From positions 1 to 44,393 of IMG/VR virus record IMGVR_UViG_3300043395_001662: DNA of 44,393 bases. One strand, written 5' to 3'. Shown here in pieces: positions 2,497 to 6,849 of this stretch (its first letter is position 1; every line of letters begins with the position of its first letter). This DNA is from a virus. The notes beneath the pieces were generated by a model. The model searched no databases, was not told the DNA's origin, and saw only the letters and a program-made list of their open reading frames with translations. Made by a program: the position numbers and the translations under genes.

Positions 2497-2673
2497 ATGG
2501 AAACACAACATCCATCCAAAAACAAAACCCACACCATTGCGTTTAGAGTCACAGCGGCTCAGTATCAGCATCTGCTCTCATTTGCAGAGGCTGAGGGCTA
2601 CCGCAACCTGAGCCAGTGGATGCATCAACTCATCAAAGACGAGATTGACGATCGGGTAAGCGATGGCATCTAG
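2497..2673 (+). CDS. Ribbon-helix-helix (CopG/Arc type) DNA-binding protein
   Basis: A 58-residue protein with an AGGAGA ribosome site. After a polar N-terminus comes a short strand (residues 12-18, HTIAFRV), then helix A (AAQYQHLLSFAEAEG) and helix B (LSQWMHQLIKDEI) with the loop between. This is the size and order of ribbon-helix-helix repressors, which bind as dimers to inverted repeats using the strand. It is a candidate for binding the repeated CCTAC-N4-GTAGG element in this genome, which is inference only. Its end overlaps the start of the next gene. Confidence 0.7.
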   Translation: METQHPSKNKTHTIAFRVTAAQYQHLLSFAEAEGYRNLSQWMHQLIKDEIDDRVSDGI

Positions 2674-2965
2674 GCATCTCATAACTCTCAAGGCGATGTG
2701 CCTCAACGCAGACATCCTCGGCAAGGCTGAGCAGAGAGAGGCTCTTGGATGGGCTCTAGCCCGGCTGAACGAACTCACTGGCTCTCGCATCGCTGCTGCT
2801 CTGGCAGGCAGGCCATCAGAGGCTGTCGCTCAGGAACTCCAGCAGGCTCACGATCGGTCAGAGGAACTAGATCGCCTCATCGACTACATTTGCCTGCAAA
2901 CACGCTCGGATCGAAAACGCCTAGAGGCAGCCTTTCACTGGAGGGAGTCCATAAGTGGGCGATAA
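2663..2965 (+). CDS. Hypothetical helical protein, 100 residues
   Basis: Starts inside the end of the ribbon-helix-helix gene and ends inside the start of the methyltransferase gene, so the three are probably translated together. The protein is almost entirely alpha-helical in composition, rich in Ala, Leu, Arg and Glu, with no membrane segment. Its position suggests a link to regulation or DNA modification, but no motif supports a definite role. Confidence 0.65.
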   Translation: MASRHLITLKAMCLNADILGKAEQREALGWALARLNELTGSRIAAALAGRPSEAVAQELQQAHDRSEELDRLIDYICLQTRSDRKRLEAAFHWRESISGR

Positions 2966-4283
2966 AAAACAACTAACCGTCGGCTCTCTGTTCTCAGGCA
3001 TCGGAGGGCTTGACCTAGGGCTGGAGCGCGCTGGGATGCGTGTGATCTGGCATTCAGAACTAGACCCGTATGCCTGCAAAATCCTTAAGAAACACTGGCC
3101 GGAGGTGCCAAATCATGGGAACATCAAAGAAATCAACTGGGAGGAAGTCGAAAGACCAGATGTCATCTGCGGAGGATATCCCTGCCAGCCCTTCAGCCAA
3201 GCAGGGCATCGCCGAGGAGAGGACGATGAGCGACATCTCTGGCCATGGGTCAGAGAGGCCATACGCATACTTAGACCCAAGTACGCAATCTTGGAGAATG
3301 TACGGGGCCATCTCTCTCTGGGAGGAGTCACCGTTATTGGAGAACTTGCCAGCATCGGGTATGACGCAGAATGGCGCATTGTTTCTGCAGCCAGCGTGGG
3401 AGCCGCTCACCGCCGAGACCGCATCATTATCGTGGCCTACCCCCAGAGCCAGCCCAGCGATGGCATCAACGATTACGCCAGAGAACTCTCACAATCCTCG
3501 CAGGAAGGAAAATCTGGAGACAATCGTTGGCAGGAGGCTCTGGCCAACTCCAACTGCTGTGATGGTGGAGCAACCCAATCTGGAACTGACAGAGACCGGG
3601 AGGCGAAAAGTGGCGAACGGGGACAGTTTTGCTGTGGGTCTGGCGGATGCCGTGAGGCTCTGGCCGACTCCAACATCTCGGGACTGGAAGGGAGCATCAG
3701 GATTCAAGGACGAGCAGCGAAATCTGACGGACTTGACAACGAGGGCGCAGATAGCGGATGGACACAGAATGTGGCCAACGCCTCGAGCCTCAGAGTTGAT
3801 GGATCAGGACATCGACAAGGTTCAGGAGAGGCTGGAGAACGGCAGACCATACAAGGCGAGGCTGGAGGAGGCAGTGGCTCTGTGGCCAACGCCGACAGCG
3901 AGCGACTGGAAGGGCAGAGGGCCGAACAGCCAGCAGCAGGGCCTGCCAGAGATGGTCAAGCGGCAGGAGGGCCTGTGGCCTCTCGAGGAAAGAGAGGAGG
4001 AGACTCTGCCTCTGTATCCAACCATGAGCGCATCAGGGATGGGCAACACAGGATCGCAGGAGATGCTCCAAAAGCGAGTAGAGGCCGGGTCTTTGACCGA
4101 GGACGAGAAACGGGGTATGACGGCTGGCAATGGTGGACGGCTGAACCCGACGTGGGTCGAGTGGCTCATGGGATTTCCTCTCGGGTGGACAGACTTAGAG
4201 GACTCGGAAACGCAGTAGTTCCACAGGTTGCCGAGGTCATAGGCCGCATGGTTGTTCTCCATGCAGAGAGCAGCGAAAACTAG
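2955..4283 (+). CDS. DNA (cytosine-5) methyltransferase
   Basis: 442 residues from a GTG start. It transfers a methyl group from S-adenosylmethionine to carbon 5 of cytosine in a DNA target. Conserved motifs appear in order: SLFSGIGG (residues 11-18, cofactor binding), GYPCQPFSQ (PC at 76-77, catalytic cysteine), ENV (114-116), HRRDR (152-156) and GLGNAVVP near the C-terminus. The target-recognition region between about 162 and 405 is low-complexity, with repeated VANA/LADS-type units. The same bases are open in the +1 frame for a 330-residue protein (3226..4218). It probably protects phage DNA from host restriction, and all catalytic residues are present. Confidence 0.93.
   Translation: MGDKKQLTVGSLFSGIGGLDLGLERAGMRVIWHSELDPYACKILKKHWPEVPNHGNIKEINWEEVERPDVICGGYPCQPFSQAGHRRGEDDERHLWPWVREAIRILRPKYAILENVRGHLSLGGVTVIGELASIGYDAEWRIVSAASVGAAHRRDRIIIVAYPQSQPSDGINDYARELSQSSQEGKSGDNRWQEALANSNCCDGGATQSGTDRDREAKSGERGQFCCGSGGCREALADSNISGLEGSIRIQGRAAKSDGLDNEGADSGWTQNVANASSLRVDGSGHRQGSGEAGERQTIQGEAGGGSGSVANADSERLEGQRAEQPAAGPARDGQAAGGPVASRGKRGGDSASVSNHERIRDGQHRIAGDAPKASRGRVFDRGRETGYDGWQWWTAEPDVGRVAHGISSRVDRLRGLGNAVVPQVAEVIGRMVVLHAESSEN
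3226..4218 (+). CDS. Overlapping +1-frame gene inside the C5 methyltransferase gene
   Basis: A 330-residue frame lies wholly within the methyltransferase gene, shifted +1. The ATG at 3226 has a strong ribosome site, GAGGAG at 3214-3219, six bases upstream. The frame has no stop for nearly 1 kb. The protein has five WPTP(T/R) repeats, two followed by a DWKG unit, and ends with the ordered-looking block NPTWVEWLMGFPLGWTDLED. I recall proteins with this WPTP.../VEWLMG layout accompanying phage C5 methyltransferases, function unknown. The repeat units are dual coding: at 3882-3914 the bases read VANADSERLEG in the methyltransferase frame and WPTPTASDWKG in this one. Expression is inferred. Confidence 0.7.
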   Translation: MSDISGHGSERPYAYLDPSTQSWRMYGAISLWEESPLLENLPASGMTQNGALFLQPAWEPLTAETASLSWPTPRASPAMASTITPENSHNPRRKENLETIVGRRLWPTPTAVMVEQPNLELTETGRRKVANGDSFAVGLADAVRLWPTPTSRDWKGASGFKDEQRNLTDLTTRAQIADGHRMWPTPRASELMDQDIDKVQERLENGRPYKARLEEAVALWPTPTASDWKGRGPNSQQQGLPEMVKRQEGLWPLEEREEETLPLYPTMSASGMGNTGSQEMLQKRVEAGSLTEDEKRGMTAGNGGRLNPTWVEWLMGFPLGWTDLEDSETQ

Positions 4284-4290
4284 GCAGATG

Positions 4291-4312
4291 CCTACCTCGG
4301 TATGATAGAGTC
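4291..4312 (+). promoter_or_regulatory. Inverted-repeat promoter element (site A)
   Basis: CCTACCTCGGTATGATAGAG, with TATGAT as probable -10 box, 34 bases before a ribosome site and ATG at 4346. It nearly matches the element at 11241. The CCTAC/GTA(T/G)G arms form an inverted repeat overlapping the -10, as a repressor operator would. Confidence 0.6.
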
Positions 4313-4345
4313 ATCATCTCAGCCAAAACAGAGAAAGGAGTGGTT

Positions 4346-4507
4346 ATGAGAAGAAAAACCCAACAGCCAGAGCAGGAGCAGGAGCAGACAATCACTATGC
4401 GGCTGTCTGACTTTCAGGAGATGGTTGCCCGGCTGATTGAACTTGAGGTCACAGTTGAACTCAGGAACGCAATCACTGAGCAACTGATGAAAACTCCTGA
4501 GCAATGA
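4346..4507 (+). CDS. Small DNA-binding-like protein, 53 residues
   Basis: First gene after promoter site A, with ribosome site AAAGGAG eight bases before ATG. The N-terminus is basic, then Glu/Gln-rich (PEQEQEQ). Next comes a short strand-like stretch TITMRLSDFQ and helices, resembling a minimal ribbon-helix-helix fold. The resemblance is weak and no function is certain. Its stop overlaps the next start (ATGA), indicating coupling. Confidence 0.55.
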   Translation: MRRKTQQPEQEQEQTITMRLSDFQEMVARLIELEVTVELRNAITEQLMKTPEQ

Positions 4508-4767: not shown

Positions 4768-5076
4768 GTGCTGGAAAAGCAGTTTGCAGAGCAGGTTGAG
4801 AGCATCCTGAACGTATTTGGATGGACGTGGAAGCATGATCTGCCCGCGCTGCGCCAGTCTGGCAAGTGGTCAACAGCCGTTAGAGGCACGATCGGATTCC
4901 CAGACTACATCGCTGTTCGCAAAGACCGAGTTGTTTGCGCTGAACTAAAGGCTGAGAAGGGCAGGCTGTCATCAGAGCAGAAACGATGGCTCTCCCTGCT
5001 GGAGCAGTCAGGCAAAGTTGAGGTTTATGTATGGAGGCCTAGCGATCTCCAGCAAATCGCAGAGATACTGCGATGA
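4768..5076 (+). CDS. VRR-NUC domain nuclease
   Basis: 102 residues from a GTG start, the usual size of stand-alone phage VRR-NUC proteins. The PD-(D/E)XK-type active site is visible as GFPDYIAV (D46) and CAELKAEKG (E59-L-K61), followed by a helix beginning SSEQKRWL, typical of the family. These enzymes cut branched or structured DNA with a metal ion, and in phages probably process recombination or packaging intermediates. It overlaps the next gene by four bases. Confidence 0.85.
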   Translation: MLEKQFAEQVESILNVFGWTWKHDLPALRQSGKWSTAVRGTIGFPDYIAVRKDRVVCAELKAEKGRLSSEQKRWLSLLEQSGKVEVYVWRPSDLQQIAEILR

Positions 5077-5312: not shown

Positions 5313-6849
5313 ATGATCGCAGATGACCTGAAGGCTCTGGCTCGCCCCATCAGCAGCCTTGCCCCGATGCCCGGGAACCCACGCCTCGGAAATGTTGAGG
5401 CTGTCATGCGTGTCATATGACACATTCGGCCAGCGCAAGCCAATAGTTGCTAGACGAGATGGCACTGTTATTGCAGGAAACCACCAGTTAGAGGCAGCAA
5501 AGCGGCTCGGCTGGGAGGAAATCGCTGTTGTTTTCGTTGATGATGATGACCTGACAGCCAAGGCGTACTCGCTAGCAGACAACAAAACTGGCGACCTAGC
5601 CTCATATAACTACGCTGACCTAGATGCTCTGCTAGCAGAGGTCAGAGTGGATGAGGCCCTGATGGAGGCAACAGGATTCTCTGTCAACATCCCTATTTTC
5701 GCTGATCCATTTGCAGCCTTTCCAGCCCCCGGCTCTCCTAGCCCTGTCAGCCCATCCTCAGAGGGAGGAGAGCAGTATTCGTATGATGCGCCGGCTCCTC
5801 CGTCTATCGCTGAGCGATTCATAGTCCCTCCCTTCACTGTTCTTGATGCTCGCTCTGGCATCTGGCAGGAGCGCAAGCGGAGATGGCTATCTGCCGGAAT
5901 CCGATCAGAACTAGGCAGAGGAGAGAACCTGCTCCAGATGAGCGACACTGTTCTCAAACTGGGGCATACCCTGCCATCCCTCAGCGGCCGCATCCCGGAC
6001 TACTATGCCCAAAAGAACGCAGCAGAGAGGGCTGTTGGGCGATCCCTCTCCAACGAGGAGTTCGAGAGAGAGCATCTCGTCATTCCAGATGGCCCAGATA
6101 CTCTATCAAAGGGAGGAACATCCATCTTTGATCCTGTTCTCTGCGAGTTGGCCTACAGATGGTGGTGTCCTCCAGCCGGGCTCATCATTGACCCATTTGC
6201 AGGAGGATCAGTCCGAGGAGTTGTCGCTGGGATGCTCGGCAGGCGATATGTGGGAGTCGATCTCAGAGCAGAGCAGGTTGAGGCCAACAGAGAGCAGGCT
6301 CAGAGCATCTGCCCAGACGCTGACATCCAGTGGATCGCTGGGGACTCTCGCCGCGTCATCGCCTCAGATGAGGTTCCGGGCTCTGCTGACTTTCTGTTCT
6401 CATGCCCTCCATACGCCGACCTAGAGGTCTACTCAGATGATCCTGCTGACATCTCAGCCATGGGATTCCCAGAGTTTCTTGAGGCATACCGGGACATCAT
6501 CGCTGCAGGAGTAGACAAACTGGCCAATAATCGCTTTGCCTGCATCGTCATTGGAGATGCGAGAGACAAGCGAGGGATGTACTACAACCTGATCGGCGAA
6601 ACAGTGCGAGCGTTTGCAGATGCTGGCTGTGGTTTCTATAACGAGGCAATACTCGTCACATCAGTAGGTTCTCTGCCCATCAGGATTGGCAGGATATTCC
6701 CATCAGGGCGCAAACTAGGGAAAACGCATCAAAACGTGCTTGTTTTCGTCAAGGGCGACCCCAAAAAGGCCGCAGAGGCGTGTGGCGAGATAGAGGTTGA
6801 GTTGCCTGAGATGATTACGCAGGCAGAGGATGGCGACCTTGCTCAGTGA
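5313..6849 (+). CDS. ParB-like / DNA amino-methyltransferase fusion, frameshifted
   Basis: Starts at ATG 5313 with AAAGGTG upstream and reads into a ParB/sulfiredoxin-like domain (NPRLGNVEAVMR). It then meets TGA at 5418-5420, while the +1 frame continues SYDTFGQRKPIV and VIAGNHQLEAAKRLGW, the expected continuation. Dropping one base between 5409 and 5418 restores a 511-residue protein. The second half is an S-adenosylmethionine enzyme: DPFAGGSVRG (motif I) then SCPPYADLEVYS (motif IV), an N4-cytosine or N6-adenine DNA methyltransferase. ParB-like domains fused to methyltransferases are common in phages. The break may be a programmed +1 shift, a true mutation or an assembly error. Without it, translation could begin at TTG 5359 in the downstream frame, missing the domain start. 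Confidence 0.8.
5409..5421 (+). other. Apparent +1 frameshift site (CGT GTC ATA TGA C)
   Basis: Zero-frame codons run CGT GTC ATA TGA. Reading TCA TAT GAC from 5413 restores the conserved ParB-like sequence. The stop is followed by C, the same UGAC context used by the release-factor-2 programmed +1 shift. Spacing of conserved residues fits exactly one skipped base. Whether the ribosome does this or the base is an error cannot be told here. Confidence 0.5.

Follow-up and report, generated by a model that had tools for sequence, protein, structure and literature searches.

One phage gene region most probably encodes both chains of a single C5-cytosine DNA methyltransferase, the second chain being read in the +1 frame from within the gene of the first, and we put the probability of this reading, including a role of the enzyme in protecting phage DNA, at about 0.86. 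The region lies in a 44,393-base virus record of a tailed phage (the window, by which we mean this whole stretch), where genes for terminase, portal, major head and tape-measure proteins can be recognised. The alpha chain (2955-4283) would provide the catalytic core and cofactor site with motifs I-VIII and X, and the hidden protein is most likely a beta subunit (3115-4218) which, translated from its own ribosome site, supplies motif IX together with the target-recognition region, the latter in the form of WPTP cassettes arranged in a row. Once assembled, the two chains would methylate one or several short target sequences in the phage DNA, shielding that DNA against restriction enzymes of the host. 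Along the cassette array, alpha would act as a loosely constrained linker, kept open so that motif X is reached.

Results

The locus comprises these features (window positions):

2955-4283, + strand: alpha, C5-cytosine methyltransferase frame, 442 aa, with motifs I-VIII and X and without motif IX; GTG start assumed
2985-3008, + strand: alpha motif I (SLFSGIGG)
3101-3106, + strand: GGAGGT, Shine-Dalgarno of beta, 8 bases before ATG 3115
3115-4218, + strand: beta, nested +1 gene, 367 aa, with overlap region, six WPTP cassettes and motif IX
3171-3188, + strand: alpha motif IV (GGYPCQ, catalytic Cys)
3226-3228, + strand: ATG with GAGGAG six bases upstream, a possible secondary start, less conserved
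3291-3308, + strand: alpha motif VI (LENVRG)
3408-3422, + strand: alpha motif VIII (HRRDR)
3433-3540, + strand: beta cassette 1, type 2
3541-3660, + strand: beta cassette 2, type 0
3661-3771, + strand: beta cassette 3, type 5
3772-3882, + strand: beta cassette 4, type 3
3883-4014, + strand: beta cassette 5, type 6
4015-4137, + strand: beta cassette 6, type 1
4138-4191, + strand: beta motif IX (RLNPTWVEWLMGFPLGWT); in the alpha frame almost the same bases (4143-4196) give EPDVGRVAHGISSRVDRL
4191-4226, + strand: alpha motif X (RLRGLGNAVVPQ), constrained in the alpha frame

The first-pass annotation had described a long +1 frame within a C5 methyltransferase gene, an ATG at 3226 behind GAGGAG, and a C-terminal block reading NPTWVEWLMG and FPLGWTDL, all of which are present. 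It had also called the methyltransferase complete, and this did not hold. Alpha matches PF00145 (E=1e-45) over residues 8-182 only and M.HhaI (phmmer) over residues 10-162, and by these alignments it has motifs I, IV (PCQ), VI (ENV) and VIII; no motif IX was found in the alpha frame, and alpha is without a recognisable recognition domain. Nor is the overlap confined to the recognition region, as had been supposed, since beta spans motifs IV-VIII as well. The +1 frame is open for 384 codons (3064-4218), a length unmatched in 20,000 codon-order shuffles (maximum 378) and in 20,000 synonymous permutations of the methyltransferase (maximum 370). With none of 20,000 shuffles reaching 384 codons we rejected chance as the source of this openness, and because synonymous permutations come within 14 codons of it, we do not make openness alone our main argument.

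Motif IX is found in beta. In a MAFFT alignment RLNPTWVEWLMGFPLGWT matches the canonical C5 motif IX (RRLTPRECARLQGYPDSY and similar) column by column, and hhalign comparison of fused relatives and Rickettsiales enzymes with ordinary enzymes likewise placed the equivalent blocks at motif IX. Seven ordinary plasmid C5 enzymes, which served as controls, carry motif IX in their own frame, in a divergent version in one of them (L264); no WPTP or motif IX frame was found alongside, and the longest +1 run without a stop is between 39 and 207 codons in each. Two plasmid enzymes from E. coli that were inspected are ordinary single-chain enzymes. Structure prediction for beta alone was of low confidence (pLDDT 54), and neither the comparison of this model with solved folds nor a profile search against solved structures gave a match, and the model was left out of the argument; the +1 protein found nothing in NCBIfam and a sub-threshold match only in Pfam. 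In the fused relative L103, PF00145 covers residues 1-347 in one stretch, and residues 1-362 of its AlphaFold model, in which confidence is fair for the motif IX-X part and low for the cassette part, match M.HhaI along the full length, with Z 21.1 and rmsd 3.7 over 236 aligned residues. A beta frame on the Paenibacillus polymyxa plasmid pAP1 (L086, 1721-3211) has two successive motif IX blocks, LNPTWVECLMGFP and LNPAWVECLMGFP, with a stop between them.

The nested arrangement recurs widely. With few exceptions, the 80 viral loci found through the +1 protein have a related frame displaced one base ahead relative to that of the methyltransferase, and beta is mostly wholly inside the methyltransferase frame. 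Because selection by the +1 protein biases this set in its favour, we assembled another from alpha residues 1-163 only. In this second set motif IX stands in the +1 frame at 42 of 64 loci and in the alpha frame at none; the others are 13 loci without motif IX by pattern, most of which still show WPTP units in a +1 frame that is open over a long stretch, 3 that end inside the gene and 6 without an anchor. Methyltransferase homologues lacking the +1 frame, which had been named as evidence against a second gene, were thus not borne out. The phage database search that had been proposed for the +1 protein was productive: its reading matches 88 records of named phages, chiefly Paenibacillus and Mycobacterium phages, and the longer ORF from 3070 matches phrog_1008 with E=7.7e-39. 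In bacterial genomes, 357 stretches encode a relative, and 45 of the 80 loci kept from these scored as nested under a strict pattern. The chromosome of a Roseovarius MAG (OX638333.1) holds at least five near-identical copies of the locus (L152, L153, L155, L157, L158), perhaps several related prophages or an assembly effect. Locus L029 (133-1936) has two related methyltransferase frames in tandem, the first nearly without a cassette region.

We observed four arrangements of the same parts. In the nested form, that of the window, motifs I-VIII and X belong to alpha, and the cassettes and motif IX to beta. In the split form (L020, L049, L060) alpha carries motifs I-VIII, and beta carries cassettes, IX and X in one frame; L116 has a beta chain of this type. 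In the fused form, seen in most of 27 mycobacteriophage-type loci, a single chain has all parts, and many fused loci retain leftover LPTP units in the +1 frame; with the phages DLane and Ovechkin, fused and split states occur among near relatives. In the Rickettsiales form (L169, L172, L265) alpha includes IX and X, and the +1 frame is the WPTP array alone. The parts list is constant and only its distribution between frames varies, which is our main argument that the two chains are one enzyme. The Rickettsiales loci count against it in one respect: as motif IX is in alpha, a beta chain there would carry the array only. We also considered whether the segment before motif X in split types is duplicated motif IX DNA, and rejected this when other-frame readings of L020 gave no support.

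In order to see which frame is constrained where, ungapped pairs were compared segment by segment. Upstream of beta, 67% of differences fall at alpha position 3, and in the overlap with motifs IV-VIII the figure is 56-58%, still mainly the alpha pattern. Within the cassettes (341 pairs) beta position 3 accounts for 58% of differences and beta position 2 for 16%, and mean identity is 76% in beta versus 40% in alpha, with beta higher in 341 of 341 pairs; grouping these pairs by beta similarity somewhat favours beta, and the C-terminal block, chosen without such grouping, gives the same reversal. In the motif IX block 57% of differences are at alpha position 1, which is beta position 3, and both frames are conserved (identities 92% in beta, 83% in alpha). 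At motif X, beyond the end of beta, the alpha pattern is regained, with 71% of differences at alpha position 3. Judged by these codon-position patterns, the +1 frame is a real coding sequence under selection, and it is the hidden frame that is constrained over the WPTP repeats and the C-terminal block and the methyltransferase frame before and after. The first-pass annotation thus foresaw correctly that two proteins are encoded, both under selection; constraint in one frame only, which it had named as a refuting pattern, applies in part, over the repeats, where the +1 frame is constrained in sequence and alpha only stays open. Across the cassette array of 65 loci the alpha frame has 0 stops in 7,802 codons versus 386 in the third frame, these loci having been taken as nested, a class that already requires an open alpha frame. 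Alpha is kept open there, and its freedom from stops suggests that it is apparently translated across the array as a linker.

Beta has a conserved start of its own. When ATG positions were tabulated relative to the PCQ motif in 76 loci, the dominant start lay 56 bases upstream of the GGYPCQ codons (ATG 3115 in the window), with ATG in 37 of 76 loci and, in 30 of these 37, a Shine-Dalgarno match of at least 4 bases at nearly always identical spacing. The ATG and GAGGAG at 3226 that had been proposed as the start do exist; that position has ATG in 19 of the loci, 9 of them with a Shine-Dalgarno match of at least 4 bases, and, being less conserved than ATG 3115, it was rejected as the main start. 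The conserved ATG 3115 and its GGAGGT therefore indicate that beta probably runs from 3115 to 4218. The Shine-Dalgarno of beta overlies a Glu-Val pair of alpha, in which the Glu codon is GAG in 21/21 loci versus 140/455 (31%) of Glu codons in the same genes, and the ATG of beta sits on an alpha His codon, which is CAT in 24/25 loci versus a background of 62.5%; the loci are related, so formal p-values would overstate this bias, though its direction is clear. No mRNA structure beyond chance was found near the start of beta. A simple consensus scan found no promoter-like site in 2500-4500, and alpha and beta may thus share one mRNA.

Discussion

The cassettes are where a specificity function would reside. 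The array, in which WPTP-like signatures mark off units of about 40 residues, occupies in order the recognition-domain position of C5 enzymes between motifs VIII and IX. In the viral set, 228 units fall into 26 shared types and 41 singletons, in shuffled orders; every protein except one has between one and six units, and the window has six, in the order 2-0-5-3-6-1. Between enzymes whose cores are less than 50% identical, 57 cassette pairs are at least 65% identical, and one unit of L043, for example, shares 81% identity with the window's cassette 5 where the cores share 39%. Such sharing of cassette types among distant cores is the pattern expected from module exchange. No unit matched known recognition domains. 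Bacillus phage C5 methyltransferases (SPR, H2 and others) have tandem recognition domains with several targets (PMC8936443), and by this precedent we take the WPTP units to be putative exchangeable target-recognition modules; as beta has a low-confidence model and no fold or sequence match, a recognition role would rest on position, modularity and precedent. We lean somewhat towards the fuller reading that beta is an exchangeable specificity subunit of shuffled mosaic cassettes, one target each, overprinted on the linker of the catalytic subunit, in a compact gene that protects against several host restriction enzymes. If so, every cassette swap would have to keep the second frame open.

The repeats might instead be a scaffold or linker within the second subunit of an enzyme with one specificity. 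The lack of a match between any unit and a known recognition domain, the poor predicted structure and the single unit of some betas would suit this, but the placement of the units between motifs VIII and IX, their mosaic order with types common to enzymes of cores below 50% identity, and the tandem recognition domains of Bacillus phage enzymes make it rather unlikely. The first-pass annotation had pictured a linked role for two separate proteins, either in target selection or in anti-restriction, and part of this survives, as the putative recognition region would select targets. That beta is a separate protein, anti-restriction or of other function, overlapping a self-sufficient methyltransferase seems quite improbable: its annotation in phage Shelly as a hypothetical internal gene and its want of a fold match would agree with this, but alpha has neither motif IX nor a recognisable recognition domain, beta supplies motif IX, and fused relatives carry this region within the methyltransferase chain itself.

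Those fused single chains, which occur in mycobacteriophages, could also suggest that here too ribosomes leave the alpha frame for the +1 frame and produce a single chain. We rejected such a frameshift product for the nested form, and hold it to be highly improbable, since the +1 frame stops at 4218 and the chain would lose motif X, where alpha is still constrained, and since beta has conserved start signals of its own. Finally, synonymous permutation alone rarely opens runs of up to 370 codons, which is what a functionless by-product of codon composition could draw on; this has a negligible probability in our judgement, as the codon-position pattern reverses within beta, conservation is higher in beta than in alpha for all cassette pairs, and the main frame of fused relatives codes for residues of the same kind. 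The reading of alpha and beta as two chains of one methyltransferase thus remains the one we prefer.

Within the large-subunit gene of M.EcoHK31I, a different frame encodes the small subunit. As described in PMC3404938, which cites Lee, Kam and Shaw (1995) for this two-polypeptide C5 methyltransferase of specificity YGGCCR, the larger chain has motifs I-VIII and X and the smaller has IX, a motif layout like that of the window; according to the same paper its recognition domain is predicted in the larger subunit, whereas the window has its array in beta, and it belongs to a restriction-modification system, whereas the window gene is a phage gene and no restriction gene was recognised beside the methyltransferase locus. 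By its motif content the window fits the M.EcoHK31I architecture; its points of difference are where the recognition part is proposed to lie, the cassette array and phage origin. M.AquI (PMC3404938) also has core and motif IX on separate chains and resembles the split type L020, but its smaller chain bears both IX and X, whereas the window keeps X in alpha. The multispecific Bacillus phage enzymes share with the window a phage origin and several tandem units at the recognition position; they are single chains, whereas the window units are on a second chain in another frame and their several specificities are putative. The closest relatives of beta are phrog_1008 and Paenibacillus phage Shelly gp56, which belong to the same protein family. 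Shelly gp56 is already annotated as an internal gene of gp55, and the labels, 'DNA methyltransferase' for phrog_1008 and 'hypothetical protein' for gp56, assign a subunit role to neither; the open-licence papers searched contained no description of a beta-type subunit role in phages.

In phages and bacteria a widespread class of methyltransferases is probably annotated as a complete enzyme, with the second gene either a stray entry or missing. Should both chains be needed, an enzyme cloned or recoded from the annotated frame alone would be inactive, and specificity predictions from the annotated protein would use the wrong frame. The locus would also be a clear case of overlapping genes with cooperating products, with constraint passing from one frame to the other and back along the gene. 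As the cassette types are shared and countable, specificity becomes testable, and methylomes from phages whose cassette sets are known could assign a target to each type. Elsewhere in the window, 5359-6849 encodes a ParB-like domain fused to a second DNA methyltransferase domain (phrog_723, phrog_498), and a small ORF at 4768-5076 resembles, by eye, a putative VRR-NUC nuclease.
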